The notes under the pieces were generated by a model. The model was not told the origin of the DNA. It made no database searches and worked only from the letters and a program-made list of their open reading frames with translations. 44,899 bases of DNA from contig JAFAUH010000095.1 of the NCBI GenBank assembly GCA_019243445.1, positions 1 to 44,899 of the forward strand, written 5' to 3'. Positions 3 through 16,130 of the stretch are shown piece by piece. The translations under genes were made by a program, and so were the position numbers. Position 1 is the stretch's first letter. Each line of letters begins with the position of its first letter. This stretch comes from Streptomycetaceae bacterium. Lineage in GTDB: Bacteria; Actinomycetota; Actinomycetes; Streptomycetales; Streptomycetaceae.

Positions 3-3000
3 CTGGTCTATCTGCCGCGCGACCGCTACACCACGGCCATCCGACTGCGCCTCACCGAGATCCTCAAAGAGGAACTCCAGGGCTGCACTGTCGATTTCAC
101 CGCCTGGAACACCGAATCGGTGCTCTCCCGGCTGCACTTCGTCATCCGCGTCGCTCCCGGTACCGAGCTGCCGGAGCTGACCGACGCCCAAGCCGACCGT
201 ATCGAGGCGCGGCTGGTCGAGGCCGCCCGCTCCTGGGAGGACGGCTTCGCCGAGGCGCTGGGCGCCGAGTGCGGCGAGGAACGCGCGGCCGAGCTCTCCC
301 GCCGTTACGCGCACGGTTTCTCCGAGGGCTACAAGGCGGACTTCACACCGCGTACCGCCGTCGCCGACCTCCAGCACATCGAGCGGCTCGGCAAGGACGA
401 CTTCACCCTCAGCCTGTACGAGCCGGTCGGCGCGCCCGAGGGCGAGCGCCGCTTCAAGATCTACCGCACCGGCGCGCCCGTCTCGCTCTCCGCCGTCCTG
501 CCGGTACTGCAGGGCCTTGGTGTCGAGGTGGTCGACGAGCGGCCGTACGAGCTGAAGCGCACTGATGCGTCCATGGCGTGGGTGTACGACTTCGGGCTGC
601 GCGTCGACCGCTCGCTCGGTGCTCTCGGCGACGATGCCCGCGAGCGCTTCCAGGATGCCTTCGCGGCGGTGTGGACCGGCAATGCCGAGAACGACAAGTT
701 CAACTGCCTGGTACTGCGCGCTGGACTGACGTGGCGTCAGGCAATGGTGTTGCGCGCCTACGCCAAGTACCTGCGTCAGGCGGGCGCCCCCTTTAGTCAG
801 GACTACATGGAGGACACCCTCAGCACCAACGTCCACACCACCCGGCTGCTGATCAATCTCTTCCAGGCAGGCCTCTCCCCGGATCACCAGCGGGCCGGCT
901 CGGAGTTGACCGACGGCCTGCTGGAGGAGCTGGACGGCGCGCTCGACCAAGTGGCCTCGCTGGATGAGGACCGCATCCTGCGCTCCTTCCTCACTCTCAT
1001 CAAGGCCACTTTGCGCACCAACTACTTCCAGCGCGATGCCGACGGCAAGCCGCACCCGTACCTGTCGATGAAATTCGACCCGCAGGCACTCCCGGACTTG
1101 CCCGCGCCCCGCCCCGCGTACGAGATCTGGGTGTACTCGCCGCGCGTGGAAGGCGTGCACCTGCGCTTTGGCAAGGTCGCGCGCGGCGGCCTGCGCTGGT
1201 CCGACCGTCGTGAGGACTTCCGTACCGAGATCCTCGGCCTGGTCAAGGCGCAGATGGTGAAGAACACCGTCATCGTGCCGGTGGGCGCGAAGGGTGGCTT
1301 CGTCGGCAAGCGGCTGCCCGACCCGGCAGTCGATCGCGATGCATGGCTGACCGAAGGCATTGCCTGCTACAAGACCTTCATTTCCGGCTTGTTGGACATC
1401 ACCGACAACCTTGTCGGTGGTGAGGTCGTCCCACCGCACGACGTCGTCCGGCACGACGGGGACGACACCTATCTCGTCGTCGCTGCCGACAAGGGCACGG
1501 CGTCTTTCTCCGACATCGCCAACGAGGTCGCGAATTCCTACGGCTTCTGGCTCGGCGACGCCTTCGCCTCCGGCGGCTCGGTCGGCTACGACCACAAGAA
1601 GATGGGCATCACCGCCCGCGGGGCGTGGGAATCGGTCAAGCGGCACTTCCGCGAGATGGGGCGCAACACGCAGGAAGAGGACTTCACCGTCGTCGGCGTC
1701 GGCGACATGTCAGGCGACGTCTTCGGCAACGGCATGCTGCTGTCGGAGCACATCCGCTTGGTCGCTGCTTTCGACCACCGGCACATCTTCCTCGACCCTG
1801 ACCCGGACGCGGCTGTCTCGTATGCCGAGCGGCGCCGCATGTTCGAGCTGCCGCGCAGTAGCTGGGCCGATTACGACAGGAAGTTGATCTCGGCCGGCGG
1901 TGGCGTCTTCCTGCGCAGCGCCAAGTCGATCAACATCACCCCGCAGATCCGCAAGGCGCTCGGCATCGAAGCGAAGACCGCCAAGATGACACCGGCCGAG
2001 CTGATGAAGGCGATCCTGCAGGCCCCCGTCGACCTGTTGTGGAACGGTGGCATCGGCACGTACGTGAAGTCCTCGGTGGAGTCGCACGCCGATGTCGGCG
2101 ACAAGGCCAACGACGCCATCCGGGTCGACGGCCGCGACCTGCGAGTGCGGGTCGTCGGCGAGGGCGGCAACCTGGGGCTCACCCAGCTCGGCCGGATCGA
2201 GTTCGCCCTGCAGGGCGGGAAGATCAACACCGACGCGATCGACAACAGTGCCGGCGTGGACGCCTCTGACCACGAAGTCAACATCAAGATCCTGCTCAAC
2301 GCGGTAGTCGCCGACGGCGACATGACCGTCAAGCAGCGCAACCAACTGCTCGCCGAGATGACGGACGAGGTCGCCGCGCTGGTGCTGCGCAACAACTATG
2401 CGCAGAACGTGGCGCTCGCCAACAGCATGGCTCAGGCCCCGAGCCTGCTCCACGCACAGCAGCGCTACATGAGGCGGCTGGTGCGCGACGGCAAGCTCGA
2501 CCGTGCGTTGGAGTTCCTGCCCACCGATCGGCAGATCCGCGAACGGATGAACGCGGGCCTCGGCCTCACCCAGCCGGAGACCTCGGTGCTGCTCGCGTAC
2601 ACCAAGATCACGGCCGCTGAGGAACTGCTCAGCACCTCACTGCCGGATGACCCGTATCTGCTGCAGTTGCTGCACGCCTACTTCCCGGGGGCGCTGCGCG
2701 AGCGGTTCACCGCCCAGGTCGACGGGCACGCACTGCACCGCGAGATCATCACGACGATGCTGGTCAATGACACGATCAACACCGCGGGTACGACCTTCTT
2801 GCACCGTATGAAGGAGGAGACCGGGGCATCGACGGAAGAGATCCTCCGGGCACACACCGCAGCCCGTGCGATCTTCGATATGTCCTGCATCTGGGACGAG
2901 GTGGAAAACCTCGACAACATCGTGACCGCCGACGTGCAGACTCGCGTACGGCTGCACTCGCGCCGTCTTGTCGAACGCGGCACCCGCTGGTTGCTGGGCA

Positions 3001-3593
3001 ATCGGCCGCAGCCCCTGGAGATCGCCGAGACCATCGGCTTCTTCGGCGAGGGCGTGATGTCCGTCTGGTCGCAGCTTCCCAAGCTGCTGCGTGGTGCGGA
3101 GCTGGAGTGGTACCAGGGCATCCACGACGAGCTGACGGGCGCGGGTGTGCCGGAGGAACTGGCGACGCGAGTCGCCGGCTTCTCGTCCGTCTTCCCGGCG
3201 CTCGACATCGTCGCGGTCGCCGACCGGGTGAGGAAGGATCCGCTGGATGTCGCGGAGGTCTACTACGACCTCGCCGACCGGCTGCGGATCACCCAACTCC
3301 TCGACCGAATCATCGAACTGCCACGCACCGACCGGTGGCAGTCGATGGCTCGCGCGGCGATCCGCGAAGATCTCTTCGCGACGCACGCCGCGCTCACGCA
3401 GGACGTGCTGTCGGGGGGCGACGGCGCGGCGACGCCGGAGCAGCGGTTCGAGGCATGGGAGCGGAAGAACGCGGCCTTGCTCGGTCGCGCCCGCACGACG
3501 CTGGACGAGATTCAGGGATCGGAGTCGTTCGACTTGGCGAATCTGTCGGTCGCCATGCGCACGATGCGGACGCTGCTGCGTACGCATAGCTGA
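3..3593 (+). CDS. gdh: NAD-specific glutamate dehydrogenase, large type (5' end outside window)
   Basis: Oxidatively deaminates glutamate to 2-oxoglutarate with NAD in the cytoplasm. The frame is already open at base 3 and continues into the GTG at 120, so the gene starts upstream. About 1,196 residues are present; the large (about 180 kDa) actinobacterial family is near 1,650, so roughly the first 450 are missing. Family features visible are the GGLRWSDRREDFRTE segment with the following VPVGAKGGFVGK lysines, the DMSGDVFGNGML nucleotide-binding region and WNGGIGTYVKSS. A strong hairpin follows 8 bases after the stop, so the gene probably ends its own transcript. No frameshift was seen. Confidence 0.96.
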   Translation: MVYLPRDRYTTAIRLRLTEILKEELQGCTVDFTAWNTESVLSRLHFVIRVAPGTELPELTDAQADRIEARLVEAARSWEDGFAEALGAECGEERAAELSRRYAHGFSEGYKADFTPRTAVADLQHIERLGKDDFTLSLYEPVGAPEGERRFKIYRTGAPVSLSAVLPVLQGLGVEVVDERPYELKRTDASMAWVYDFGLRVDRSLGALGDDARERFQDAFAAVWTGNAENDKFNCLVLRAGLTWRQAMVLRAYAKYLRQAGAPFSQDYMEDTLSTNVHTTRLLINLFQAGLSPDHQRAGSELTDGLLEELDGALDQVASLDEDRILRSFLTLIKATLRTNYFQRDADGKPHPYLSMKFDPQALPDLPAPRPAYEIWVYSPRVEGVHLRFGKVARGGLRWSDRREDFRTEILGLVKAQMVKNTVIVPVGAKGGFVGKRLPDPAVDRDAWLTEGIACYKTFISGLLDITDNLVGGEVVPPHDVVRHDGDDTYLVVAADKGTASFSDIANEVANSYGFWLGDAFASGGSVGYDHKKMGITARGAWESVKRHFREMGRNTQEEDFTVVGVGDMSGDVFGNGMLLSEHIRLVAAFDHRHIFLDPDPDAAVSYAERRRMFELPRSSWADYDRKLISAGGGVFLRSAKSINITPQIRKALGIEAKTAKMTPAELMKAILQAPVDLLWNGGIGTYVKSSVESHADVGDKANDAIRVDGRDLRVRVVGEGGNLGLTQLGRIEFALQGGKINTDAIDNSAGVDASDHEVNIKILLNAVVADGDMTVKQRNQLLAEMTDEVAALVLRNNYAQNVALANSMAQAPSLLHAQQRYMRRLVRDGKLDRALEFLPTDRQIRERMNAGLGLTQPETSVLLAYTKITAAEELLSTSLPDDPYLLQLLHAYFPGALRERFTAQVDGHALHREIITTMLVNDTINTAGTTFLHRMKEETGASTEEILRAHTAARAIFDMSCIWDEVENLDNIVTADVQTRVRLHSRRLVERGTRWLLGNRPQPLEIAETIGFFGEGVMSVWSQLPKLLRGAELEWYQGIHDELTGAGVPEELATRVAGFSSVFPALDIVAVADRVRKDPLDVAEVYYDLADRLRITQLLDRIIELPRTDRWQSMARAAIREDLFATHAALTQDVLSGGDGAATPEQRFEAWERKNAALLGRARTTLDEIQGSESFDLANLSVAMRTMRTLLRTHS

Positions 3594-3600
3594 GCATGCG

Positions 3601-3630
3601 TCGGGTCCGGGGCAGTGGCCCCGGACCCGA
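3601..3630 (+). terminator. Terminator hairpin after gdh
   Basis: Perfect 13-base arms (3601-3613 and 3618-3630) with a 4-base loop, very GC rich, 8 bases after the gdh stop. There is no T-tract, which is common in Streptomyces. It sits inside the longest open frame of the next gene, which argues for the later start chosen there. Confidence 0.8.
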
Positions 3631-3754
3631 CGTGTTCAAGGCCAAAGCAAGGTCAGTTCCGCCCCGCTTTGTGACGGGAGTCATATCACCCATACGAGTT
3701 ACGCGGGTTTATCCGCTGGGAAACAGAGGGGAGGGGCTGACTACCGTCATCCCG

Positions 3755-4837
3755 ATGACCAGCGCCGAGATATCGACAGTGCAAAAGAGCAGGACCGTAC
3801 CGGGGCAGCGGGCGGCAACGGACAGCGCTCGTGCGAAGCGTGACCCGTTCTTCGACAATGCGAAATTTCTTCTGATCGTTCTGGTCGTCATCGGTCACAA
3901 CTGGTATCCGCTGATCGGTCAGTCGCGGGCGATCAAGGCCGCCTATATGGTCGTCTACGCCTTCCATATGCCGGCGTTCATACTGCTCTCCGGCTACTTC
4001 TCGCGCCATTTCGAGGCCACGCCCGTCCAGGTACGCAAGCTCATCCGCAGTGTCCTGCTGCCGTACGCCATCTTCGAGATCGCCTATCTGGCAGTCGTGG
4101 CGAAAGTAGACAGGCAGTCGTTCAGGCTCGATCTGTTCACCTATCCGAGCTTTTTGTGCTGGTTCCTGATTGCGCTGTTCGTATGGCGATTGACCACACC
4201 GGTCTGGCGGGCGGTGCCGAGACCAGTCCTCGTCTCCGTCCTCGTCTCGCTCGCCGCCGGTCTGATGAACATCAGCACCGACTTCGCGTTCTCACGGATC
4301 CTGCAGTTCCTACCGTGGTTCGTGGCCGGGCTCAGCGTGAAGCGCAAGCACTTCAGGTGGCTGCACCGGCGTGCTGTGCGCTTGTGGGCCGTGGCCGTCC
4401 TGGTCGTCGCGCTGCCGGTGTCATATCTGCTCGCCCCTTACGCCAACGCGGGCTGGTTGGACATGGCGGCCAACGCCGTGGGACTGGGCGTCGGGACCGT
4501 CGAGTACCTCGAGATCCGGCTGGGGCTGCTGGCAGTCGGCACGCTTCTCGTCGCCGCGGTGCTGGCCCTCATCCCGGAACGCAGGTTGTGGCTCACCGCG
4601 CTCGGCGCGTACACGATGTATCCCTTCCTGCTTCACGGTCTGTTCGTCAAGGCGGCCCAGGGACTCGGGCTTTACGGCAAGGTCGCCAACGGCGGGCCGC
4701 CGGCCGTGGTCACGCTCACCCTTGCCGCTGTCGCGCTCACACTGCTGCTGACGACCCCGCCGGTGCGGAAGGCCGCGGGGTGGGCAGTGGAACCGCAGTG
4801 GCCCCGGTTGCCGTGGCTGGAGCATGTCGAGCGCTGA
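3755..4837 (+). CDS. Acyltransferase-3 family integral membrane protein
   Basis: 360 residues. After a polar N-terminus of about 30 residues comes DPFFDNAKFLLIVLVVIGHNW, the first helix of the acyltransferase-3 (OafA/NodX-like) family, with the conserved membrane-face His in VIGHNW. About ten hydrophobic segments follow. Such enzymes O-acylate sugars or other surface molecules; the substrate here is unknown. The frame stays open back to 3596, but that start lies inside the gdh terminator, so the ATG at 3755 is preferred. A GA-rich stretch near 3727-3737 is rather far for a ribosome site. It is probably a single-gene transcript unrelated to the importer downstream. Confidence 0.8.
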   Translation: MTSAEISTVQKSRTVPGQRAATDSARAKRDPFFDNAKFLLIVLVVIGHNWYPLIGQSRAIKAAYMVVYAFHMPAFILLSGYFSRHFEATPVQVRKLIRSVLLPYAIFEIAYLAVVAKVDRQSFRLDLFTYPSFLCWFLIALFVWRLTTPVWRAVPRPVLVSVLVSLAAGLMNISTDFAFSRILQFLPWFVAGLSVKRKHFRWLHRRAVRLWAVAVLVVALPVSYLLAPYANAGWLDMAANAVGLGVGTVEYLEIRLGLLAVGTLLVAAVLALIPERRLWLTALGAYTMYPFLLHGLFVKAAQGLGLYGKVANGGPPAVVTLTLAAVALTLLLTTPPVRKAAGWAVEPQWPRLPWLEHVER

Positions 4838-4945
4838 ACGTGCCGAGGAGGCGCTGAGTGGGCGTCGGGCGATGCCAAGACAGGAGAGCGCTCCTCAGGC
4901 GACGCAGTCGAATGGTGATCTCATCTGCATACTGTGCGTGGGGGG

Positions 4946-4974
4946 TTGACGTCATGTCACATCTGGTCTTGATT
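4946..4974 (+). promoter_or_regulatory. Possible promoter or operator of the sugar importer
   Basis: A TTGACG -35-like hexamer at 4946 overlaps the perfect 8-base palindrome TGACGTCA (4947-4954). A weak -10 (TTGATT, 4969) lies 17 bases downstream. The palindrome could be a regulator site. This rests on position and sequence shape only. Confidence 0.3.
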
Positions 4975-5012
4975 GGGCCTACCGCAGGGAGGATGAGGAT
5001 GAGGAGATTGTC

Positions 5013-6338
5013 ATGTCAGTCTTAGCAAGGCGACTGGTGGCCACGGTCGGGGCGGCCATGGCTCTGGTCGCCGGAGCCACCGCGTGCTCTTCCGGTTCGT
5101 CGACCGGGACCGGCAAGCCCGCGCCTGTCGGGCCCGCGGCCGGGACGATCGACTGGGAGGCTCCGCCGATCACACAGGATGCGAACGATCCCCGTCAAAC
5201 GCTGATCCATGCCTTCGAAAAGGCATACCCAAAGATCACGGTGAATCTGATCTCGGGTGCGACCAACACCGATACGCTGCGCTCCACGCTGACGACGCAG
5301 ATCTCCGGTGGCTCCTCGACACCGGATGTGTACGACGGCGACGTGATCTGGCCCGCGCAGTTCGCCCACGCCGGGCTCGCCTCACCGCTGTCGGACTATC
5401 TGCCCGCCGACTACTGGCACCAGTTCGCACCGGGCCTGGTTTCGGGTGCCACCTACCAGGGCAAGGTCTACGGCTCCCCGCTCTACGCGGACGAGGGCTT
5501 CCTGTACTACCGCAAGGACCTGCTCGTCGAGGCGGGCCTGCCGGTGCCCACCACCTGGGAGCAGTTGGTCAGCGAGTCCAGGACACTGCAGTCCAAGGGC
5601 CTGGTCAAGTACGGCTTCGTCTGGCAAGGCGGCGCCTATGAGGGATTGACCTGCAACTGGACCGAGTTCATGAGCGACGCGGGCGGCGCCACGGTGAACT
5701 CCGACGCCAGCAAAGCCACCATCAACTCGGCCGCCTCGCTCAAGGCCCTCACCTTCATGCGGACGCTGGTCTCCAGCGGCGTGTCGCCCTCCTCGGTGAC
5801 AACGATGCAAGAGCCGCAGGCGATGTCGACCTTCGACGACGGCCAGGCGGCGTTCCTGCGTAACTGGGACTATGCCTATTCCAACGCCAACACACCGCAG
5901 AACTCGAAGGTCGTCGGCCAGGTCGGAGTCGCACTCCCGCCGACCTTCGCGGGCCGATCAGGGGCGGGCTACTCCACCGTGGGTGGGGGAAACGTTTATC
6001 TCAATCCGCACAGCAAGAACATCGGTGCGTCGCTCGCGTTCATCAAGTGGCTGGCGAGCCCGGCGGCGCAGGACATCCTCGCCGGGCAGTACTCAGAGAT
6101 CCCCACCAACCAATCGGTACGCACCGACCCGGCGATCCTGACGAAGAACTCGGTGCTCGCGGTGGCGGCCCACACCAAGCTGATCGCACGGCCCTCGCAG
6201 ACCCCGCAGTACCCGAAAGTCAGCCAGGCGGTGTACTCCACCATCAACGCCGCACTTTCGGGGTCGGTTTCCCCCTCCTCCGCGCTGTCGTCGGCGTCGA
6301 GCCAGATCAACACCGCCGTCTCCGGAGGCGGCCTGTAG
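5013..6338 (+). CDS. Sugar ABC transporter substrate-binding lipoprotein
   Basis: 441 residues. The N-terminus is a lipoprotein signal: MSVLARR, a hydrophobic stretch, then lipobox AGATAC with Cys25 followed by SSGSS. The rest resembles family-1 solute-binding proteins for maltose-, trehalose- or oligosaccharide-type sugars, with a TPDVYDGDVIWPAQFAHAG segment and a YGSPLYADEGFLYYRKDLL hinge region. It captures substrate outside the membrane for the two permeases that follow 27 bases later. GAGGAG at 5001-5006 is a good ribosome site for this ATG. The exact sugar cannot be told from the sequence. Confidence 0.9.
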   Translation: MSVLARRLVATVGAAMALVAGATACSSGSSTGTGKPAPVGPAAGTIDWEAPPITQDANDPRQTLIHAFEKAYPKITVNLISGATNTDTLRSTLTTQISGGSSTPDVYDGDVIWPAQFAHAGLASPLSDYLPADYWHQFAPGLVSGATYQGKVYGSPLYADEGFLYYRKDLLVEAGLPVPTTWEQLVSESRTLQSKGLVKYGFVWQGGAYEGLTCNWTEFMSDAGGATVNSDASKATINSAASLKALTFMRTLVSSGVSPSSVTTMQEPQAMSTFDDGQAAFLRNWDYAYSNANTPQNSKVVGQVGVALPPTFAGRSGAGYSTVGGGNVYLNPHSKNIGASLAFIKWLASPAAQDILAGQYSEIPTNQSVRTDPAILTKNSVLAVAAHTKLIARPSQTPQYPKVSQAVYSTINAALSGSVSPSSALSSASSQINTAVSGGGL

Positions 6339-6365
6339 CCGACCGGGCCACGATGGGGATGAATC

Positions 6366-7340
6366 ATGAGCATTGACAGCGCATCTGGCCTCACCGCACC
6401 GGAACCTTCCCCCGCGAGGGCAGTGCCCCGGCTGCCGGAAAGCAGCATCCGTCGCAACCAGCGACTGCTGATCCGGCTGGGATGGCTTTATTCAGCACCG
6501 GCGTTACTGCTCGTCGCCGCAGTAACGATTTTCCCGATCGTCTTCTCAGTGGTGATGAGCCTCAGCCATGTCACGCTGAGTAGTAGCGGATTCGCGCTCG
6601 GTGGATTCACCGGCAGTAACTACGCGGTGATGTTCGGCTCCCAACTGTGGCGCTACGCCCTCACATTCACGCTCGCCTACACCTTCGGCACGGTTCTCGT
6701 CGAGATCATTTTCGGTACGCTCGTTGCTCTCGTACTGGAGCGACTGACCATCGCACGCGGCTGGCTCATGGCGCTGTTGCTCATCCCATGGGCGATGGTC
6801 ACCGTCATCTCCGCGGAACTGTGGGACTACGTCTACAACGGCGTCTACGGTGCGGGCACGTCGATCCTGAACGATCTGGGCATGCACCAGCCGAACCTGC
6901 TGGGCACACCGACGGCCGCGATCATCTCCATGGCAGCCGCCGACATCTGGAAGACCACGCCATTTGTGTCGATCATCGTTGTCTCCGGTCTGGTGATGCT
7001 GTCTGTCGAGCTCACCGAGGCCGCGCGCATCGACGGCGCCAACGGCTGGCAGGTCTTCTGGCGCGTCACACTGCCGCAACTGCGGCCCACGCTGGCGCTG
7101 GCCGTGCTCTTTCGCATCCTTCAGGCGTTCGGCCTGTTCGACCTACCGTACGTGCTCACCGGCGGAGGTCCGGGCAACAAGACCGAGTCGTTGGCGCTGC
7201 TCGGCTGGCAGACGATCTTCTCCGACCTGGACTTCGGTCCGGGAGCAGCTGTCGCCGTCTCCACCGCGGCGCTGACGCTCATCGGCTGTCTGCTGTTTTT
7301 GAAGGTCTTCCGCAGCCAGGTCGGAAAGGAAGAACTTTGA
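6366..7340 (+). CDS. Sugar ABC transporter permease (MalF-type)
   Basis: 324 residues with six predicted membrane helices after a 40-residue cytoplasmic N-terminus. The binding-protein-dependent permease signature (EAA loop) is seen as ELTEAARIDGANGWQVFWRVT at about residues 217-237, and an FGLFDLPYVLTGGGPGN segment follows, typical of the MalF/UgpA side of carbohydrate importers. It pairs with the next gene to form the channel. The stop overlaps the next start. No ATPase gene is nearby; in Streptomyces one shared ATPase (MsiK) commonly serves many sugar importers, so this system may use it too. Confidence 0.93.
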   Translation: MSIDSASGLTAPEPSPARAVPRLPESSIRRNQRLLIRLGWLYSAPALLLVAAVTIFPIVFSVVMSLSHVTLSSSGFALGGFTGSNYAVMFGSQLWRYALTFTLAYTFGTVLVEIIFGTLVALVLERLTIARGWLMALLLIPWAMVTVISAELWDYVYNGVYGAGTSILNDLGMHQPNLLGTPTAAIISMAAADIWKTTPFVSIIVVSGLVMLSVELTEAARIDGANGWQVFWRVTLPQLRPTLALAVLFRILQAFGLFDLPYVLTGGGPGNKTESLALLGWQTIFSDLDFGPGAAVAVSTAALTLIGCLLFLKVFRSQVGKEEL

Positions 7341-8212
7341 ACCCTCTCCCATATGTTGTGGCCCCAAAGCGCACCGGCGGGCGCCGCCATGGCTGGCGGC
7401 GGTGGATCAACGGCGTCAACCTGGCCGCGCTGATCATCGCCGTCATCGTCGCGGCACCGCTGTACTGGATGATTATCAGCTCACTCAAGGACCCCAAGGA
7501 GATTGGCGGACCGCCCAGCGTCTGGCCGCATCGGCTCTCCGGCGCCAACTACCAATCGGCCTTCTCGCACTACCATTTCGAGACCTACCTGCTGAACTCG
7601 TTGATTGTCTCGGTATGCGCGACGATCATCGTGCTGGGACTCGGCATGTTCGCCGGCTACGCCCTGGCCCGGTTGCCGATGCGCGGCACGTTCACCATCA
7701 TGGTCATGCTGTTGATGATCTCGCTCTTCCCGGCGATTGCGATCGTCTCGCCGCTCTACCTGATCATGCGCGATCTCGGCTGGCTCAACAGCTATCAGGC
7801 GTTGATCATCCCGTACGCGGCGTTCAACCTGCCATTCGCGATCTGGATCCTACGGAACTTCTTCCTCGGCATCCCCCGCGAAATGGAGGAGGTCGCCCGC
7901 GTCGACGGCGCATCGCCCACCAGGACCGTGCTGTCGATCATCGTGCCGCAGGTGTTGCCCGGCCTGTTCACCGCGGGTGTGTTCACCTTCACCGCGTGCT
8001 GGACCGAGTTCCTGATGGCGCTCACCTTCAACAACTCCGACCGGTATCGCACTATCGCCGTCGGAATCGCCGAGTTCGGCAGTGAGTTCACCGTGCCCTA
8101 CGGCACCATTTTCGCCGCTGCGACGGTCGCGGTGGTGCCCATTGCCCTCCTTGTTCTTGTCTTTCGACGCTCCGTCATCTCCGGTCTCACCTCAGGAGCC
8201 GTCAAGGGCTGA
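7337..8212 (+). CDS. Sugar ABC transporter permease (MalG-type)
   Basis: 291 residues, six helices, with the EAA loop EMEEVARVDGASPTRTVLSI. A TTG start at 7337 overlaps the TGA of the first permease by 4 bases and has AAAGGAAG just upstream, so translation is probably coupled. A GTG at 7358 is the alternative. The last 21 bases overlap the end of the convergent FHA-FtsK gene on the minus strand, so there is no room for a terminator between them. Together with the two upstream genes it forms a complete importer apart from the ATPase. Confidence 0.9.
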   Translation: MNPLPYVVAPKRTGGRRHGWRRWINGVNLAALIIAVIVAAPLYWMIISSLKDPKEIGGPPSVWPHRLSGANYQSAFSHYHFETYLLNSLIVSVCATIIVLGLGMFAGYALARLPMRGTFTIMVMLLMISLFPAIAIVSPLYLIMRDLGWLNSYQALIIPYAAFNLPFAIWILRNFFLGIPREMEEVARVDGASPTRTVLSIIVPQVLPGLFTAGVFTFTACWTEFLMALTFNNSDRYRTIAVGIAEFGSEFTVPYGTIFAAATVAVVPIALLVLVFRRSVISGLTSGAVKG

Positions 8213-11200
8213 GCTTTCCAGCAGCGGCAGCGCGGGCTCGGCCGAGATCGACTCGGCTGCCCGTTGCAGGGCACTCGCCAGCAGCGCCAAGTCCGTCGGC
8301 CCGTTGCCGAGTTCGCGCAGCGGGCGGCGGGTCGGTGGATCGCCCATCCGTTCCCACTCCAGCGGCACCACGGTTGGCCGCAGCGTTGCCGTGCGCGGGA
8401 TGCGCCCGCTGACCCGGCCGGCCTGGAATGGTGTCACCGCGCCGTCGGGGCGCCGTAGATAGCCGCGACCCGGCACGGAGTCGTCAAGACTGGCCGGATC
8501 CTCGACGTGCACGAGCAGCGCTGCCGATTCCGGATCCTCCGTTCGCAGCGCGATCCGCAGCCGCGACCGCTCGTCGGCCTCTGTGCCCGCCGTACGCTCC
8601 GGGCGGCCCGTGGACGCCACCAGATGCATCCCGAGTTGTGTGCCGGCGCGTGCGACGGCTTCCACCGCCCGTATGACGGAACCGGCGGCGGGCCGTCCCG
8701 GACTGCCGAGCGCGGGCGCCACCAGCGCGTCGAGGTCGTCCACGACCACTACCAGACGCCGCTCGCCGTGCCAGGCGTCGAGCGCGTCATACGAGCTGTA
8801 TGGGCCGTACGAGTCGACAGGGCCCGTCCCCGGAAGGCAGGGGGAAGCCGATACCACTGCCTCGAGCAGCTCCTCACGGCGCTTGAGCTCGGCGGTGAGC
8901 GCCTGCGCGAACTCCCGCATCCGCGCCGGATCGGACGCCGCCAGATATGTCGAAACATGCGGCAGATCCGTACAGATCCGCAGCCCTTCACCTCGCTCCG
9001 GGGCACCGTCGAGCAGCACCAGCGCCAGCCGGTCCGGCCGCGCGGCGGCGGCCAGCGCCGCGGTGACGGAGCGCAGCAGCTCCGTCTTGCCCGAGCCCGC
9101 TGCGCCGCCGATGAACAGGTGCGGGCCCTCGGTGACGAGATCGACGTCCACCGGGCCCTCAGGACCGGCACCGAGCACGGCACGTACGGCGGAGGAAGCG
9201 GCCGTGCCCGTCGATTCCGCGGTTCCTGCGGTCTCTGTGGTTTTCGCGGTCTTTGCGGTTTTCGAGGTCTCTGTGGTCCAACGCTCGGAGATCTTCGCAG
9301 GGGTGGCGAGGGCGAGGTCCAACTCGTCGAGCAGCCGGGCGGTCGCGGGCAGCGAGCTGCGCGTGCGCCGCTCCGCACCGTCGGCTTCGCGTAGCGGCGC
9401 CAGCGCGCGGGCGAACCGTTCGGCCCACGCCGACGACACCGCGTCGACGGTGATCAGCGAGTCGGCGGAGCCGTCGTCAGGCGCCGGGTGAGGAGTCACG
9501 CTCAGCGTCGTCGCCACATCGCCCTCGAGCTGGGCCACCGTCCCGCACTCCGCTGCCAGCAGTTCGGACTGCTCGGCCAGGCACAGCAGATGGATGCCGA
9601 CAGTAGGACCCGCGTGCGCCAAGTGCGCCACGGTGTCGCGCAACGCCACGGAGCCGGGGTCACCGTCCACCACCACGACGGTGAACGGACCCGAGTGCTG
9701 GGCGGATGCGGCGGCGACCGCTTCCGGGGTGGCCGTTGCCCAACCCGGCCCGAGCGGCCCGTCGTCGAGGCGGCGCGTCAACTCGGCGGTACGTGCCTCT
9801 GCCTGCTCCCGGTCGAAGGCGAGCAGCAGTCGGCAGTCCTGACCGTGGGCGGGGCGCACATGTGGCAGCCAGTTGAGCCAGGTCCACTCGCCGGTCCGCT
9901 GGTCGGCAGGGTGGACGCGGTCCGCGCTGATCAGGACGAGTTCGAGCGCCGAGGGGGAGTGCAGCGCGCACAACTGGGCGACGACGGCGCGCGCCAGACC
10001 GGCGAGACGTGGCCGCGGTCCGGCAAGACCGAGCGACCCGGTACGCCGCAGATCGGCGGTGACCGGAACGGAGGGCAGCAGGCCCCCCTCGGTCAGGAGA
10101 TCGGTGGTGCCGAGCCGCACGCTCAATGCCTCGGCATGGCCGACGCCGCGCTCCCACAGGCGTGGGCCCGGCCCGAGCGCGGTGACCAGGATGGTTGCCG
10201 CATCGGGCGCGCGGTCGCGCAGCTCGGCGGCGCGGGCGGCGAGCCGTGCCGCCTCGGCAGCCTCGGATCCACCGTGGCCCATGCCGCGTCCGGCGCCGGT
10301 GGCGATGCGCCGTGCCCAGGCTCCTATGGCCCCTGACAGCCCCGCTCCGCGCCCGGAGGCGGCGGCCTGCGGCTGATGCGGTGAAGTCAATGAAGGAGTA
10401 TGGAGAGCTGTGGCATCGAGCCGCTGCGGTGTGGCAATCCTGCCGCCGCTCTCGTCCCCTTCGTCGTGCGCGGCTCCGGAAGGGCCATCGGCGCCGGTGC
10501 CGGTGCAGCGGGCGGTGGGCGCGCTGGGGAGAGCAGTGCTGCTGAGCTCCGCCGCACCGCCGAAGTGGTTCGTCGTCGGCCCTGCGGGCGGTCGCGGGGA
10601 GTTGCCCGGCCAACCCGGGGCGCCTCCGAGGGAATCGGGCCTCCTTGGACCCGGGACGTGCTCGGCCAGGCGTTTCGCGGATCCTGCCCGTCCCGCACCA
10701 TCCGCCTTCGCATGCGGCAGGCAGACGTGCAGGTGGCCTTCCGCGTCGGGGACCAACGGCAGGGTCGGTGACGGGGGCGCCGCGGGCACGGTGCCGTCCT
10801 CCGCCGCCTGTATGGCCGCTGCCTGTACAGCCGCTGCCTGTACAGCCGCCGGGCCGGGCTCCAGGCGCAAGGTGGACTCCCCGATCCGCAGCAGTGCCCC
10901 GGGCGGCAGTGGAACCGGCCGCTCCCCGACCGGGTGGCCGTCGACGCTCGTGCCATTGGTCGACCCGAAGTCGGTGACGGCGGCGTGCCGGGATTTCGGA
11001 TCGAGGGTCACCGTGCAGTGCAGCCGTGACACATCCGGGTCGTCGAGAGGTACGTCGGCCTCGGCCGACCGCCCGATCCGCACCTGGCCGCCGTGCAGCA
11101 GATGGACGCCGCCGGCGTCGGGGCCGCCGATGACGTGCAGTGCCGCGTGGGCGCTCGAGTCGTGATGGTGCTCGTCGTGGTGGCCGTGATCGGCCGGGGT

Positions 11201-11446
11201 GTGCAGTGAGAGCACCGCCCCGTCGACCAGAGGCGGCACACCGAGCATCGCGCTGCCCGGATCGAGCCGCTGGGCCCCCGCGTAGAGCGCCACGGCGGAG
11301 CCGGCGGAGCGTACGGGCTGTCCGGAGCCGGCGCTCGCCGCGAGCGCGCCTGCCACCGTGCCCAGTGCCGTCCCCGTTGGAGCGGTGACAAGCACGTCGC
11401 GGGCGAGGCCGCTGCGCGGCCCAAGGACGGTCAGCCGGATCTGCAT
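8192..11446 (-). CDS. FHA-domain FtsK/SpoIIIE (EccC-like) ATPase
   Basis: 1,084 residues. Order: a ubiquitin-like N-terminus (about 1-90); an FHA domain (about 115-190) with IGR, SRLHC and DFGSTNGT phosphothreonine-binding landmarks; a low-complexity Ala/Pro linker (190-370); a region resembling the degenerate first ATPase of EccC/EssC (LWER, WLNWLPHV); then one intact FtsK-type ATPase with Walker A GGAAGSGKTE near 780 and Walker B LVVVVDDLDAL near 900. I see no membrane helix, unlike typical EccC. It may move a protein or DNA in response to threonine phosphorylation. It is divergent from two Ser/Thr kinases and convergent with the permease. No WXG100 gene lies beside it. Confidence 0.85.
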   Translation of the reverse strand: MQIRLTVLGPRSGLARDVLVTAPTGTALGTVAGALAASAGSGQPVRSAGSAVALYAGAQRLDPGSAMLGVPPLVDGAVLSLHTPADHGHHDEHHHDSSAHAALHVIGGPDAGGVHLLHGGQVRIGRSAEADVPLDDPDVSRLHCTVTLDPKSRHAAVTDFGSTNGTSVDGHPVGERPVPLPPGALLRIGESTLRLEPGPAAVQAAAVQAAAIQAAEDGTVPAAPPSPTLPLVPDAEGHLHVCLPHAKADGAGRAGSAKRLAEHVPGPRRPDSLGGAPGWPGNSPRPPAGPTTNHFGGAAELSSTALPSAPTARCTGTGADGPSGAAHDEGDESGGRIATPQRLDATALHTPSLTSPHQPQAAASGRGAGLSGAIGAWARRIATGAGRGMGHGGSEAAEAARLAARAAELRDRAPDAATILVTALGPGPRLWERGVGHAEALSVRLGTTDLLTEGGLLPSVPVTADLRRTGSLGLAGPRPRLAGLARAVVAQLCALHSPSALELVLISADRVHPADQRTGEWTWLNWLPHVRPAHGQDCRLLLAFDREQAEARTAELTRRLDDGPLGPGWATATPEAVAAASAQHSGPFTVVVVDGDPGSVALRDTVAHLAHAGPTVGIHLLCLAEQSELLAAECGTVAQLEGDVATTLSVTPHPAPDDGSADSLITVDAVSSAWAERFARALAPLREADGAERRTRSSLPATARLLDELDLALATPAKISERWTTETSKTAKTAKTTETAGTAESTGTAASSAVRAVLGAGPEGPVDVDLVTEGPHLFIGGAAGSGKTELLRSVTAALAAAARPDRLALVLLDGAPERGEGLRICTDLPHVSTYLAASDPARMREFAQALTAELKRREELLEAVVSASPCLPGTGPVDSYGPYSSYDALDAWHGERRLVVVVDDLDALVAPALGSPGRPAAGSVIRAVEAVARAGTQLGMHLVASTGRPERTAGTEADERSRLRIALRTEDPESAALLVHVEDPASLDDSVPGRGYLRRPDGAVTPFQAGRVSGRIPRTATLRPTVVPLEWERMGDPPTRRPLRELGNGPTDLALLASALQRAAESISAEPALPLLESSALDGS
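10801..10845 (-). repeat. 15-base in-frame tandem repeat, three units
   Basis: Three 15-base units at 10801, 10816 and 10831; the last two are identical and the first differs at three bases. It encodes an AAVQA-type repeat in the linker of the FHA-FtsK protein, so gain or loss of a unit keeps the frame. Confidence 0.85.
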
Positions 11447-11555
11447 GGTGGTCGGCGTCCCTTCTGGGTCCCTTCGGGCTTCTTCTGTTCAGGGCCTGAG
11501 GCATCCTCCCACTCGTCACTGACAACGTGCCTCCGGCGTTCACACCAACGATCTT

Positions 11556-11570
11556 GATTGATCATCAATC
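11556..11570. promoter_or_regulatory. Palindrome in the divergent intergenic region
   Basis: Seven-base inverted arms (GATTGAT / ATCAATC) around a single central base, in the gap between the divergent FHA-FtsK gene and pkaA. This AT-rich palindrome stands out in the GC-rich context and could be a regulator site. No regulator family is implied. Confidence 0.35.
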
Positions 11571-11605
11571 GATCATCTAGAGCTGGAAACCGGACGAATT
11601 CCAGC

Positions 11606-11638
11606 ACTCGGGCCGGGCTGGACCAGCCCGGCCCGAGT
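11606..11638. other. Perfect 15-base hairpin in the 540-base divergent gap
   Basis: Arms 11606-11620 and 11624-11638 are exact complements around a 3-base loop. It looks like a terminator, yet the gap 11447-11987 lies between two genes that diverge from it, so no annotated transcript ends here. It may end a short leader or untranslated RNA, or protect an RNA end. Apart from this and the small palindrome, I find no convincing gene in the gap; the open frames there (for example 11710-12000) do not look coding. Confidence 0.6.
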
Positions 11639-11987
11639 AATCTGCGGACGCCGGGGCCACCGAGTGAACCGGCAAGGCCCTTCGCCGCGTCCTTCCCTCG
11701 GAGCCCCTCGTGAAGTGGGCGTCCGCTGTGGCATCAGCGCTCCGTGCCGAGGCCCTCATACCGGGTTGGACCTGGGCATTGCGTGGGCATCGCGACGATG
11801 AAGCCAGCCGGGGCAGCGGTGGCTGGCCGCTCCACAACGGGCAGGTGCCGCGGGAAGCCGGACACTTTCGGAGGCCGGCATTACAGTGGGGCGGAGGTGG
11901 CCTGCGAAGGCCTCCGCATGATGTTGACTACGACGATGATGTCGACCACGACGATCACGAGATGATCACGACCTGGGAGCGCATGCC

Positions 11988-13730
11988 GTGCGGCCGGTAG
12001 GCAGCAAGTACCTGCTCGAGGAGCCGCTCGGGCGCGGGGCGACAGGCACCGTGTGGCGTGCCCGAGTGCGCGAGGACACCGCAGCTCCCCTGGGCGCCGA
12101 GGGTGTCGAGAGCGCGTCCTCGCAGCCCGGCGACGTTGTGGCGATCAAGGTGCTCAAGGAAGAGCTCGCAAGCGATCCCGATATCGTGATGCGCTTCCTG
12201 CGCGAGCGCTCGGTGCTGCTGCGCCTCACCCATCCCAACATCGTGCGCACCCGCGACCTGGTGGTGGAGGGTGAACTGCTCGCCCTCGTCATGGACATGG
12301 TGAACGGCCCGGATCTCCGCTGCTATGTGCGCGACAACGGCCCGTTCACCCCGATGGCCGCCGCTCTGCTCACAGCCGCCATCGCCGACGCACTCGCAGC
12401 GAGCCACGCCGACGGCATCGTCCACCGTGACCTCAAACCTGCCAACGTCCTCCTCGCCAGCAGTGAGGACGGCTCGCAGATGCACCCGATGTTGACCGAT
12501 TTCGGCATCGCCCGTCTGGCGGACTCCCCAGGAGTCACTCGTACGCATGAATTCGTCGGTACGCCCGCGTATGTCGCACCGGAGTCCGCCGAGGGCCGGG
12601 AGCAGACCTCGGCCGTCGACATCTATGGCGCGGGCATCCTGATGTACGAGTTGGTCACCGGCGAGCCGCCGTTCCGCGGTGAGAGTGCGCTCGAAGTCCT
12701 CCACCAGCACCTCAGCCAGGAGCCGCGCCGCCCTTCCACCGTGCCTGATCCGCTGTGGACGGTCATCGAACGCTGCCTGCGCAAGAATCCCGAGGAGCGC
12801 CCCAGCGCCGAGAACCTCGCCCGTGCCCTGCGCGTTGTCGGCCACGGCATCGGCGCCCACGCCACGCCGCAGGCCGCCGAGGCCGCCCTGGGGGTGGCCG
12901 GCCTGCTCGCGCTCGATTCCGCCCCGACCCGCCTGCCCGGCACCGCAGCGGCGGCCGCAGTCACCGCTGCCGGAGCAGCAGCCATGGGCAGCGCCGACGC
13001 GACACAGGTGATGCAGGGCGGCAGCCATCCCGCGATCGACGCGTACGACCCCAACGCCGCCACGAGCGTCTTGCCGAACCGGGCACCCGACAGTACCCGT
13101 GTGATGCCGTCCGAGCCGCAGGGTCCGCAAGCTCCGCAGCGCCCGCACCCTTGGGAATCCCAGCTCAGCGCGGCGCGTGACCGCAACCAGCAGACCGAGA
13201 TCGCCTATCTCGACCCCAGCCAGGACCCCCTGCGCCACCGTCCACGCCGCCAGCCCCAACCCCAACCCGCACCCCCGGCGTCCGTCCGGCAGCAGTACGG
13301 CTCGCCCCAGCCCCAGCCCCAGCCCCAACCCCGACCCCGACCCGCACCTCCGGCGTCCGCCCGGCAGCAGCAGTACGGCTCGCCCCAGCCTCAGCCCCAA
13401 CCGCGCCCGCGCCCCGAGCCCCAGCCCGCGCGGTATGAGCCGCAGCGCCGCACCGAGCGCGAGCCCGCGCCACGCCGCGAGCGCAGCCAGCGCACCCCGA
13501 TGCGCATCCCCGGCCTCGGCTGCCTCAAGGGCTGCCTGTTCATGATCTTCACCATTGTGGTGATTTTCATCCTGGTGTGGAACTTCACGCCGGTACCGCA
13601 CTGGATCGCGCGGGGCGAGAACTGGTACCAGGCCACATCGAGCTGGATCAAGTCGGCTTATCACTGGGTCAGCACGATCGGCAACGCGAGTAAGGGCGTG
13701 CACATCCCGAAGAACGGCAGCTTCGGCTGA
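11988..13730 (+). CDS. pkaA: Membrane-anchored Ser/Thr protein kinase, PkaA-like
   Basis: 580 residues. Kinase domain about 1-285 with LGRGATGTVW glycine loop, VAIKVLK lysine, H146-R-D148-LKPAN catalytic loop, D171-FG and GTPAYVAPE, so it should be active. A Pro/Gln-rich region (about 415-500) has two copies of a 25-residue unit. A single membrane helix (about 515-535) is followed by a short 45-residue extracytoplasmic tail. S. coelicolor PkaA, known as a kinase with a Pro/Gln-rich region and encoded beside pkaB, is the evident counterpart. A GTG start with GGGAGC nine bases upstream is used. pkaB follows after 177 bases. Confidence 0.9.
   Translation: MRPVGSKYLLEEPLGRGATGTVWRARVREDTAAPLGAEGVESASSQPGDVVAIKVLKEELASDPDIVMRFLRERSVLLRLTHPNIVRTRDLVVEGELLALVMDMVNGPDLRCYVRDNGPFTPMAAALLTAAIADALAASHADGIVHRDLKPANVLLASSEDGSQMHPMLTDFGIARLADSPGVTRTHEFVGTPAYVAPESAEGREQTSAVDIYGAGILMYELVTGEPPFRGESALEVLHQHLSQEPRRPSTVPDPLWTVIERCLRKNPEERPSAENLARALRVVGHGIGAHATPQAAEAALGVAGLLALDSAPTRLPGTAAAAAVTAAGAAAMGSADATQVMQGGSHPAIDAYDPNAATSVLPNRAPDSTRVMPSEPQGPQAPQRPHPWESQLSAARDRNQQTEIAYLDPSQDPLRHRPRRQPQPQPAPPASVRQQYGSPQPQPQPQPRPRPAPPASARQQQYGSPQPQPQPRPRPEPQPARYEPQRRTEREPAPRRERSQRTPMRIPGLGCLKGCLFMIFTIVVIFILVWNFTPVPHWIARGENWYQATSSWIKSAYHWVSTIGNASKGVHIPKNGSFG
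13266..13415 (+). repeat. 75-base tandem duplication in pkaA with CCCCAG hexamers
   Basis: Two adjacent 75-base copies (13266-13340 and 13341-13415) encode the PAPPAS-RQQYGS-(PQ)n-RPRP unit. Inside each copy the PQ part consists of CCCCAG-type hexamers. Copies differ at a few bases, including one extra CAG codon in the second. All changes keep the frame, so the linker length can vary between strains. Confidence 0.85.
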
Positions 13731-13907
13731 CGACCAGTTCGGCTGCCGACTCCAAATCCCGTCCCGGACTGGAGATTTATCGACTTTCAGAGGGTGTTTT
13801 CTCCCGAAGAAGCCGTACTTACCCTCACCTGGTTCCCCCAACGGCCCGTCCTCCGCGTAGCTTTGTCGCCAACAGACCGTCGGATGGCGTGACATTGCGG
13901 AGCAGCC

Positions 13908-16130
13908 TTGGCACGGAAGATCGGCAGCCGGTACACCGCCCATCAGATCCTCGGGCGGGGTTCCGCCGGAACGGTATGGCTTGGCGAGGGGCCCGAGGGG
14001 CCGGTCGCCATCAAGCTGCTGCGTGAAGACCTCGCCTCGGACCAGGAGCTCGTCGGCCGCTTCGTCCAGGAGCGTACGGCGTTGCTCTCCCTCGACGACC
14101 CGCACATCGTCGGAATAAGAGATCTCGTCGTCGACGGCAGCGATCTGGCCTTGGTCATGGACCTCGTACGCGGTTCCGACCTGCGCTCACGTCTCGAACG
14201 TGACCACCGCCTCGCCCCCCAGGCCGCCGTCTCCATCGCTGCCGACGTCGCCGATGCGCTCGCCGCCGCGCATGCCGCGGGCGTCGTCCACCGCGATGTG
14301 AAACCGGAAAACGTCCTGCTCAACGCGGCTGCCCCGGCCGGGCCCGGCGGCGCGCCCCCGGCCATGCTCACCGATTTCGGCATTGCCCGGCTCGTCGACT
14401 CGCCCCGCCGCACACGGGCCACCCGCATCATCGGCACCCCGGACTACCTTGCCCCCGAGATCATTGAGGGCCTGCCGCCTCGCGCGAGTGTCGATATCTA
14501 CGCCCTCGCGACCGTTTTGTACGAACTCCTCACCGGCTTTACGCCCTTCGGCGGCGGCCACCCCGGCGCCGTCCTGCGGCGGCATGTGACCGAGACGGTC
14601 ACCCCGGTCCCCGGCATCCCCGAGGCGCTCTGGCAGATCCTCGCCCAGTGCCTCGCCAAGGCTCCTGCCTCCCGGCTCACCGCGGGTGAACTCGGTGAAC
14701 GGCTCCGCCAGGAACTACCGGGTCTCGCCGGAGTGCCCCCGCTGGAGGTGTCATCACCGCACGACTCATCACCGCATGACTCATCACCGCACGTCGGCCG
14801 TACCGATGCCGCCCAGACAGACGAAGAGGAGATGCCCGAGCCCGCAACGCCCGCCTCCCGCGCGAGGCGCGGCGCCGTCCCGCTGGTGCGCAGCCAGGCC
14901 CCGGACTCCAGCCGGGATACCCACACCAGCATCAAACTCCCCACTGCGGATGAACTCGCCGGCTACCCGCGCCGCGAAGGCGGGGCCCATTGGGCGAGCC
15001 CGGGCGTAGCCCGGTCCACCCGGGGCGCTGGTCGGGCGAGGGGCTGGCCGGGAGCCGGGGGCGGTGCGCGGCACCGAGCCGCCTCCGACTCGCTTCGCAG
15101 GCGCCGCATCAAGCTCGCCGCCGCAGCGGTGGCCGCCTTGGTCGCCGCAGGGATCGGCGGCTGGGCGCTCGCCTCCGGCGGCAACGACGCCAAGGCCAGC
15201 ACCCGCGAAGACCACCAGCCGGCCGACTCAACCACGACCGGCGCCGATGCCTCCCCGCAAGGCAGCATGGGCACGCCCGTCGCGCTGCCGCACTGGTCCG
15301 CCTTCCGGGACGCCCCGCGCCCGGGCGTGTCGCTCGTCGGTGGCCCACGCGCGATCGCCGTGTCCGGCACCACGTACGTCTTCACGCGCGGCACCGACCG
15401 ATGCGTCTGGTACGTCATCCGGGACGAGCGCAGTGGCCGGTACGGGGCATGGCAGCGGCTTGCCGGGCTACATGTCGGCGACGATCCCGCTGTGGTCACC
15501 GCGGAGCAGGGGCAGCTCGACGTATTCGCGCTCGGCACGGACGGACTGCTCTACCGCAGGACGATGGCGAGGGGCGCCTGGGGCGAGTGGTACCAGGCTG
15601 ACCAACGCACGCACTTCGATGCGGCACCCGCAGCCGCGTCCTCCGCGCCCGGGCGCATCGACCTCGTCGGGCTCACCGGAGGCCAACTGGTCACGGCGTC
15701 GTTCGCTGGCGGCCGCTGGAATGCGTGGGCCGTGGTGCCCACGGCTGGGCATGTGACGGCTGCGCCGGGGCTGGTCTCGCGCCGCGCGGGCACCCTTGAC
15801 GCGTTTGTCGTACGCAAGGCGGACGGTGCGATCGTACGGCTGCCATATGCGGACGGAGCTTGGCAGCCGGCGCAGGTCATCGCGCAGGTCGACGCGGTGG
15901 GGCGCCCCGAGGCGGTCGCTTCCGGTGAGCAGATGTACGTGATCGCTCCCGCGGAGCGGGGCGGCTTGACGGAGGCGTTGGTCCGCCCCGCGGGCGGTGA
16001 CCCGACCGTGACGCGGGTGGCGTCGCCCTCGGCGGGCGGCTCTGCGCCGGGCGTGGTGTCTGCTGCACACGGCCACGCCGAGCTATGGGTTCACACAGGG
16101 TCCGGTGGGCTCGCGATGGCCTTGCTGTGA
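13908..16130 (+). CDS. pkaB: Ser/Thr protein kinase PkaB-like, with extracytoplasmic propeller-like sensor
   Basis: 740 residues, TTG start with GGAG six bases upstream. Kinase domain 1-265: LGRGSAGTVW, VAIKLL, HRDVKPEN (Asp near 130), D156-FG and GTPDYLAPE. Residues 282-296 are an SSPHD tandem repeat, followed by an Arg/Gly-rich linker. One membrane helix spans about 402-424. The outer 300 residues are repeated W-x-x-W strands (for example YGAWQRLAG, WGEWYQADQ, WNAWAVVPT) alternating with DVFALGTDGLLYRR-like strands, like sialidase/PLL-type beta-propeller lectins. S. coelicolor PkaB is, from memory, much shorter (near 417), so this sensor may be a lineage-specific addition. Ligand unknown. 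Confidence 0.87.
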   Translation: MARKIGSRYTAHQILGRGSAGTVWLGEGPEGPVAIKLLREDLASDQELVGRFVQERTALLSLDDPHIVGIRDLVVDGSDLALVMDLVRGSDLRSRLERDHRLAPQAAVSIAADVADALAAAHAAGVVHRDVKPENVLLNAAAPAGPGGAPPAMLTDFGIARLVDSPRRTRATRIIGTPDYLAPEIIEGLPPRASVDIYALATVLYELLTGFTPFGGGHPGAVLRRHVTETVTPVPGIPEALWQILAQCLAKAPASRLTAGELGERLRQELPGLAGVPPLEVSSPHDSSPHDSSPHVGRTDAAQTDEEEMPEPATPASRARRGAVPLVRSQAPDSSRDTHTSIKLPTADELAGYPRREGGAHWASPGVARSTRGAGRARGWPGAGGGARHRAASDSLRRRRIKLAAAAVAALVAAGIGGWALASGGNDAKASTREDHQPADSTTTGADASPQGSMGTPVALPHWSAFRDAPRPGVSLVGGPRAIAVSGTTYVFTRGTDRCVWYVIRDERSGRYGAWQRLAGLHVGDDPAVVTAEQGQLDVFALGTDGLLYRRTMARGAWGEWYQADQRTHFDAAPAAASSAPGRIDLVGLTGGQLVTASFAGGRWNAWAVVPTAGHVTAAPGLVSRRAGTLDAFVVRKADGAIVRLPYADGAWQPAQVIAQVDAVGRPEAVASGEQMYVIAPAERGGLTEALVRPAGGDPTVTRVASPSAGGSAPGVVSAAHGHAELWVHTGSGGLAMALL
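14751..14795 (+). repeat. 15-base tandem repeat in pkaB, three units
   Basis: Units at 14751, 14766 and 14781, each starting TCATCACCGCA, encode SSPHD/SSPHD/SSPHV just after the kinase domain. The units are nearly identical and in frame. Confidence 0.9.

Follow-up and report, generated by a model that had tools for sequence, protein, structure and literature searches.

A family of FHA-domain proteins encoded beside PkaA and PkaB in Streptomycetales as candidate kinase adaptors derived from a type VII secretion ATPase

We analysed a 44,899-nucleotide stretch of DNA (contig JAFAUH010000095.1, hereafter the window) from a Streptomycetaceae assembly of 5.36 Mb in 414 contigs. Its minus strand encodes P0001 (8192..11446), a 1084-residue protein that joins an FHA domain to an EccC-like body (open-reading-frame list, Pfam, TIGR03924). 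Divergent from it, on the plus strand, lie the genes for the Ser/Thr kinases PkaA (11988..13730) and PkaB (13908..16130), both matched by Pfam Pkinase, and then prfB; the initial annotation described the same divergent arrangement of the FHA gene and the kinases, and the reading frames are present where it placed them. On balance, we favour the reading that P0001 is a phosphothreonine-dependent adaptor of PkaA/PkaB, derived from the N-terminal half of an FHA-bearing type VII ATPase and probably without ATP turnover in most lineages. Features read directly from the sequence carry this reading: a conserved locus, an intact FHA site, the loss of catalytic residues, an array of Thr motifs in PkaA and a promoter motif upstream of it.

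The FHA domain of P0001 (residues 101–198; 10853..11146, minus strand; Pfam FHA at residues 122–189, E = 3.6e-16) has the residue set of a phosphothreonine reader, Gly-Arg, Ser-x-x-His and Ser-Thr-Asn-Gly. The window's copy was aligned with relatives from a locus search in which only the best 80 of 279 relatives, representing 79 loci, were retained, so that the alignment is biased to near kin. It holds the window and 71 of the 79 loci (72 rows); eight loci without the start motif (L016 and seven fragments) were left out. Residues G125, R126, S140, R141, H143, S162, T163, N164 and G165 are invariant in all 72 copies, the window included, and these comprise the phosphate-binding Arg and Ser (R126 and S140). 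The site is also intact in the nine readable copies (9/9) from the other two families of the order (f34 and f35). This invariance gives sequence support to the earlier proposal that the system is phospho-controlled. The solved structures nearest to the domain include GarA, OdhI and FhaA, FHA readers of actinobacterial kinases with which P0001 shares the fold and the binding residues; to our knowledge, none of these carries an EccC-like body.

That body follows the order seen in type VII EccC. Residues 1–82 (11201..11446, minus strand) probably form a ubiquitin-like β-grasp domain, judging from the strand-strand-helix-strand order in a predicted model of moderate confidence; none of the 50 Foldseek matches listed covers this segment, all 50 covering the FHA part. 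Behind the FHA domain come a variable low-complexity linker (residues 199–404; 10235..10852), which stands where membrane helices lie in full-length relatives, an EccC DUF-like, degenerate ATPase domain (residues 405–725; 9272..10234), which accounts for the degenerate partner region noted in the initial annotation, and an EccC ATPase-1-like domain (residues 758–1010; 8417..9175; Pfam FtsK_SpoIIIE at residues 764–948, E = 1.1e-16), all on the minus strand. The EccCa profile TIGR03924 matches residues 450–1015 with 177.8 bits, well below its cut-off of 509.15. A C-terminal tail (residues 1011–1065; 8252..8416, minus strand) matches the EccC linker ahead of ATPase 2.

The absence of a membrane helix, also claimed earlier, is borne out by region. 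Between the FHA and DUF domains, the best 19-residue Kyte-Doolittle mean is 0.68 in the window and at most 0.96 in the 72 copies, far below the 1.89 and 1.97 of the helix region of two full-length relatives. Hydropathy peaks over the whole protein (1.61 for the window's copy and as high as 1.95 in the family) are similar to the relatives' helices but lie inside conserved folded domains; we therefore rejected the whole-protein measure as a separator of the family from its membrane relatives and kept the region-wise comparison, which separates them.

The tail (EWERMGDPP...RELGNGPTDLALLASAL) is the most conserved part of the protein and is close to invariant in Streptomycetaceae. Positions at least 97% identical over the 72 aligned copies make up 39 of 55 in the tail, compared with 43/98 in the FHA domain and 102/321 in the DUF domain, and the tail is likely a binding surface. 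This pattern bears on the idea that P0001 acts as a negative regulator, sequestering or inhibiting the kinases and scaffolding no partner; it might, for example, protect against phosphatase or compete with other FHA proteins. The divergent neighbouring gene and the nearness of the FHA domain to GarA, OdhI and FhaA fit such a role, but on its own it leaves the conserved DUF domain, the ATPase fold and the near-invariant tail unexplained, and we regard it as improbable.

The nucleotide-binding residues have a different history from the FHA site. In the window, Walker A reads GGAAGSGKTE (9080..9109, minus strand) and retains its Lys (Lys787), while Walker B reads LVVVVDDLD (8729..8755, minus strand), where Asp stands at the position of the catalytic Glu. 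Across the aligned copies, position 787 is Arg in 53/72 and Lys in 19/72; among loci drawn evenly from the window's family (f1), it is Arg in 53/64, Lys in 9/64 and unresolved in 2/64. In f35 the Lys has become Val (six loci) or Ile (two) and Walker B is DN or DG, and the single f34 locus has a deletion of the P-loop core. Walker B is DD in 71/71 readable aligned rows, the catalytic Glu being absent from all of them. A Gln found in P0004 and P0005, two full-length relatives encoded in the window's genome, is replaced by Ala, Gly or Ser in 72/72 copies; we take this position to be the sensor motif of FtsK-type ATPases.

A tree built by a quick method under a simple model, with a long-branch warning, separates 86 family rows with full support from five full-length relatives, of which two belong to the window's genome. 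On it, the difference between Lys and other residues requires at least three changes among coded rows, the deletion uncounted.

The initial annotation had pictured a soluble, phosphorylation-gated motor with one intact motor domain, in which cargo would be moved by ATP hydrolysis after FHA docking. Its description holds for Walker A of the window, where GGAAGSGKTE sits in an FtsK fold, and fails for Walker B (DD where relatives have DE) and for the missing Gln; as a trait of the family, an intact motor is ruled out by the losses of Lys, Glu and Gln. Lys is gone from most aligned copies and from all nine readable copies of f34 and f35, and the segment bounded by residues 862 and 897 within the ATPase domain, 36 residues long in the window, ranges from 19 to 407 residues across copies. 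Because the catalytic residues have mostly been lost, by differing routes, while the FHA site is invariant, a phosphorylation-gated cargo motor is quite improbable. Judged from these residues, most of the P0001 family would probably lack ATPase activity.

The full-length relatives present the opposite picture. P0004 and P0005 share with P0001 and with type VII EccC the order N-terminal domain, FHA-like domain, DUF, ATPase 1 and linker; they keep GTTGSGKSE, DEF and the Gln and carry membrane helices, whereas their FHA residues are gone and the FHA site of the P0001 family is intact. P0001 has only ATPase 1 after the DUF and stops where ATPase 2 starts in P0004 and P0005; relative to them and to EccC (TIGR03924), it is without membrane helices, ATPases 2 and 3 and catalytic residues. 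Near P0004 lie two genes of the WXG100 kind, one a WXG100 gene and the other WXG100-like and next to a gene with a deaminase domain, together with a gene for a membrane kinase-like protein; these surroundings thus look like a real type VII locus. No WXG100-like frame was matched by one query among the 423 reading frames of the window (WXG100 being the only type VII gene searched for), in agreement with the earlier remark that no WXG100 gene adjoins the FHA gene. With a TIGR03924 score below the cut-off and with helices, ATPases 2 and 3, catalytic residues and a WXG100 gene all wanting, we did not class P0001 as a type VII secretion ATPase proper. We put forward, more tentatively than the adaptor reading itself, an order-wide swap: the fragment would have lost its motor, kept its phosphothreonine reader and become a dedicated kinase partner, a pseudo-ATPase scaffold for the multi-site phosphorylated linker of a sigma-E-controlled PkaA, while the full-length relatives did the reverse.

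The shared fold and the common DUF-ATPase 1-linker segment also suit a regulatory subunit, a fragment that, itself inactive, would enter EccC/EssC hexamers and couple secretion to kinase signalling. EccC scores above the curated cut-off in 27 of 30 genomes of the order; G001 has the FHA-type only, and G065 only a long-frame relative below the cut-off. In the remaining genome (G128, L179; Streptomycetaceae, two contigs, 100% complete), no EccC of either kind was detected and the FHA gene copy extends across more than one frame. These observations run in favour of a subunit. Against it, EccC is common in genomes of the order anyway, the window has no match to the WXG100 query, and the FHA gene is instead fixed beside the kinases and prfB. 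The only EccC-free genome of the 30 has a disrupted FHA gene, so that this case decides nothing; it is a lone case in which a sequencing error is possible, and the frame-changed copies L059 and L193 lie outside the EccC check. The distribution over the 30 genomes is compatible with a role as motor regulator without establishing it, and we consider a subunit of this kind unlikely, with a small share of the probability.

The position of the FHA gene beside the kinases is conserved. PkaA lies near it on the opposite strand in 72 of the 79 loci; in the remaining seven the contig begins inside the FHA gene. A second set comprised 80 genomes of the order, some of which may also be represented among the 79 loci. 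Here the FHA gene was found in all 65 f1 genomes, among the matches listed and counted by eye, with presence defined as one or more listed segments of 50% identity or higher. PkaA is on the opposite strand, 0.3–3.8 kb from the best segment, in 60 of the 64 f1 loci other than the window; the other four are cut by contig ends. In f34 and f35, 9 of 12 examined loci have the FHA gene, PkaA, PkaB and prfB, and the other three have PkaB and prfB followed by the contig end (this set leaves out three f35 genomes, G063, G080 and G086). In 24/24 prfB loci from other orders of the class, three of them with shorter flanks, neither the FHA gene nor PkaA/PkaB stands beside prfB; two have distant kinases of 30–36% identity. 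A search of 60 genomes of the class returned, outside f1 and among the matches listed, only long frames (at least 1363 residues). The trio is thus a trait of the order so far as sampled, and the co-occurrence that the initial annotation proposed to look for recurs in all three sampled families. With this neighbourhood conserved and the Arg and Ser of the FHA site present, neither outcome that the initial annotation set as refuting its proposal was observed. Two loci depart from the pattern: L027 has its prfB match on the opposite side of the FHA gene, and the second kinase of L082 is only 33–35% alike. Both the HRD..KP.N and DFG motifs are present in 135/136 PkaA copies and 134/134 PkaB copies.

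Candidate docking sites lie in the cytosolic linker of PkaA, a kinase with a C-terminal membrane helix (13533-13586). The window's linker has three Thr-x-Val-[ML] sites (13002-13013, 13062-13073 and 13095-13106; span 13002..13106, plus strand). Across the family this cytosolic linker, 219 residues on average, has a mean of 2.97 Thr-x-[VI]-[LMFV] sites, compared with 0.03 in shuffles (which, here and for the promoter motif below, preserve letter composition only), and 127/135 linkers have at least two such sites where 0.0 are expected. The Ser version of the pattern occurs in 1/135 linkers and the reversed pattern in none. FHA domains need phosphothreonine, and the preference for Thr fits an FHA reader; the phospho-site of GarA/OdhI resembles Thr-x-Val-Phe. 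The array is plausibly a docking array for the FHA domain. In PkaB, the linker carries a different motif, DTHTSIKLP in the window (14916..14942, plus strand), whose general form [DS]TH is found in 126/134 linkers against 2.6 expected. Two other PkaB candidates were dropped: the Thr-x-Val array (2/134 linkers, 5.8 expected) and RDTH as the general spelling (18/134).

Upstream of PkaA, a sigma-E-type promoter motif, GTGAAC-N18-CGTCC (11664..11692, plus strand), has its AAC 321 bp from the gene. Such a motif faces PkaA in 111/133 intergenic regions, the window included, against 3.6 expected. A loose form of the pattern occurs six times in the whole window (6.57 expected), so that the window's single site counts through conservation alone. 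Sigma-E control of the FHA gene was rejected, the motif being found in its direction in 0/133 regions under the strict pattern and 2/133 under the loose one. From gene order, P0001 would be the counterpart of Streptomyces coelicolor SCO2975, which is annotated as hypothetical under its SCO number in PMC6767563. The ChIP-seq table of sigma-E targets there lists sco2974 (pkaA) and sco2975, and the pkaA promoter belongs to a set of 21 target promoters with predicted conservation in 9 or more of 19 species. Literature searches, with thin coverage of subscription journals, returned nothing on P0001 or SCO2975 beyond this table entry. In S. coelicolor, PkaB is described as an integral, tail-anchored protein (PMC3087755), and an interaction of PkaA with PkaI, a kinase acting on the spore wall complex, is reported (PMC4416010). 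The sigma-E listing, the tail anchor and the PkaA-PkaI interaction point to the cell envelope.

Several observations weigh against the adaptor reading. The window and its near kin are the copies that retain the Walker A Lys, and such Lys-type copies may bind ATP. The aligned rows are related by descent, and the counts over them are not independent. The AlphaFold2 models are of moderate confidence overall, and the tail was modelled alone, at low confidence. The S. coelicolor table (PMC6767563) lists sco2975 as a sigma-E target with a non-consensus-like site, while the motif found here faces PkaA only. The eight PkaA linkers of 135 without the array are the eight f35 copies examined, which come from genomes with an intact FHA domain; the Thr-x-Val array therefore cannot be the only target. 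Finally, 13 of the 21 kinase matches in the window's genome are readable, and although PkaA has the most Thr-x-Val-hydrophobic sites (four, one within the membrane helix; the rest have 0–2), one or two each occur in 7 of the other 12, PkaB included, so that the sites are not private to PkaA and may be general kinase sites.

With these points set against it, the adaptor reading suggests the following course. The ancestor would have been an FHA-bearing type VII ATPase, from which P0001 kept the β-grasp-like domain, FHA, DUF and ATPase 1, and lost the membrane helices, ATPases 2 and 3 and, probably, ATP turnover in most lineages. Envelope stress may raise PkaA through the sigma-E-type promoter in the window's organism. 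Membrane-tethered PkaA would then phosphorylate its own cytosolic linker at the Thr-x-Val-hydrophobic sites and might also act on PkaB at its [DS]TH motif; these phosphorylated sites would be where the FHA domain docks, and the DUF/ATPase-fold body, together with the conserved tail, might hold or block a putative partner at the membrane.

Phospho-control has already been suggested for FHA-bearing type VII ATPases (Garrett et al., 2024; PMC11217815), which makes P0001 a variant of a known idea. The T7SSd system described there (TsdC, TsdD) resembles the present locus in having a TsxC-type ATPase with a conserved FHA phosphothreonine motif and, close by, a gene for a membrane Ser/Thr kinase. The window differs in its kinase pair and prfB and in that no membrane ATPase and no WXG100 gene were found; TsdH and TsdI were not searched for. 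The PpkA-Fha pair of the Agrobacterium type VI secretion system (PMC3953482) likewise has a kinase phosphorylate a Thr that is read by an FHA protein; it belongs to a different machine, and the comparison is by family names alone. If the adaptor reading is true, the family would be a case of a secretion motor turned signalling part. PkaA and PkaB of Streptomyces gain a specific candidate reader, with residues and sites named.

Some further observations concern the relatives and neighbours of P0001. The closest named relative among the loci retained is from Streptomyces humicola, at 76% identity (L030). Elsewhere in the window's genome, L088 (C114:8000-22000) contains at 2145-10876 an FHA-type type VII locus with a full-length ATPase and a degenerate FHA domain; its membrane kinase-like protein has HLD for HRD and DHG for DFG and is pseudokinase-like. 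The ATPase-domain stretch at residues 862–896, which separates two core parts of the fold, is repeat-rich and reaches up to 407 residues in L041, L051 and some other Streptomyces loci. PkaB of the window has a single membrane helix (approximately 15108-15170), and its region past the helix (15132-16127) is long and without a Pfam match. PkaB exceeds 600 residues in 25 of 134 copies, with a median of 416, a spread indicating that this C-terminal region has been gained or lost.

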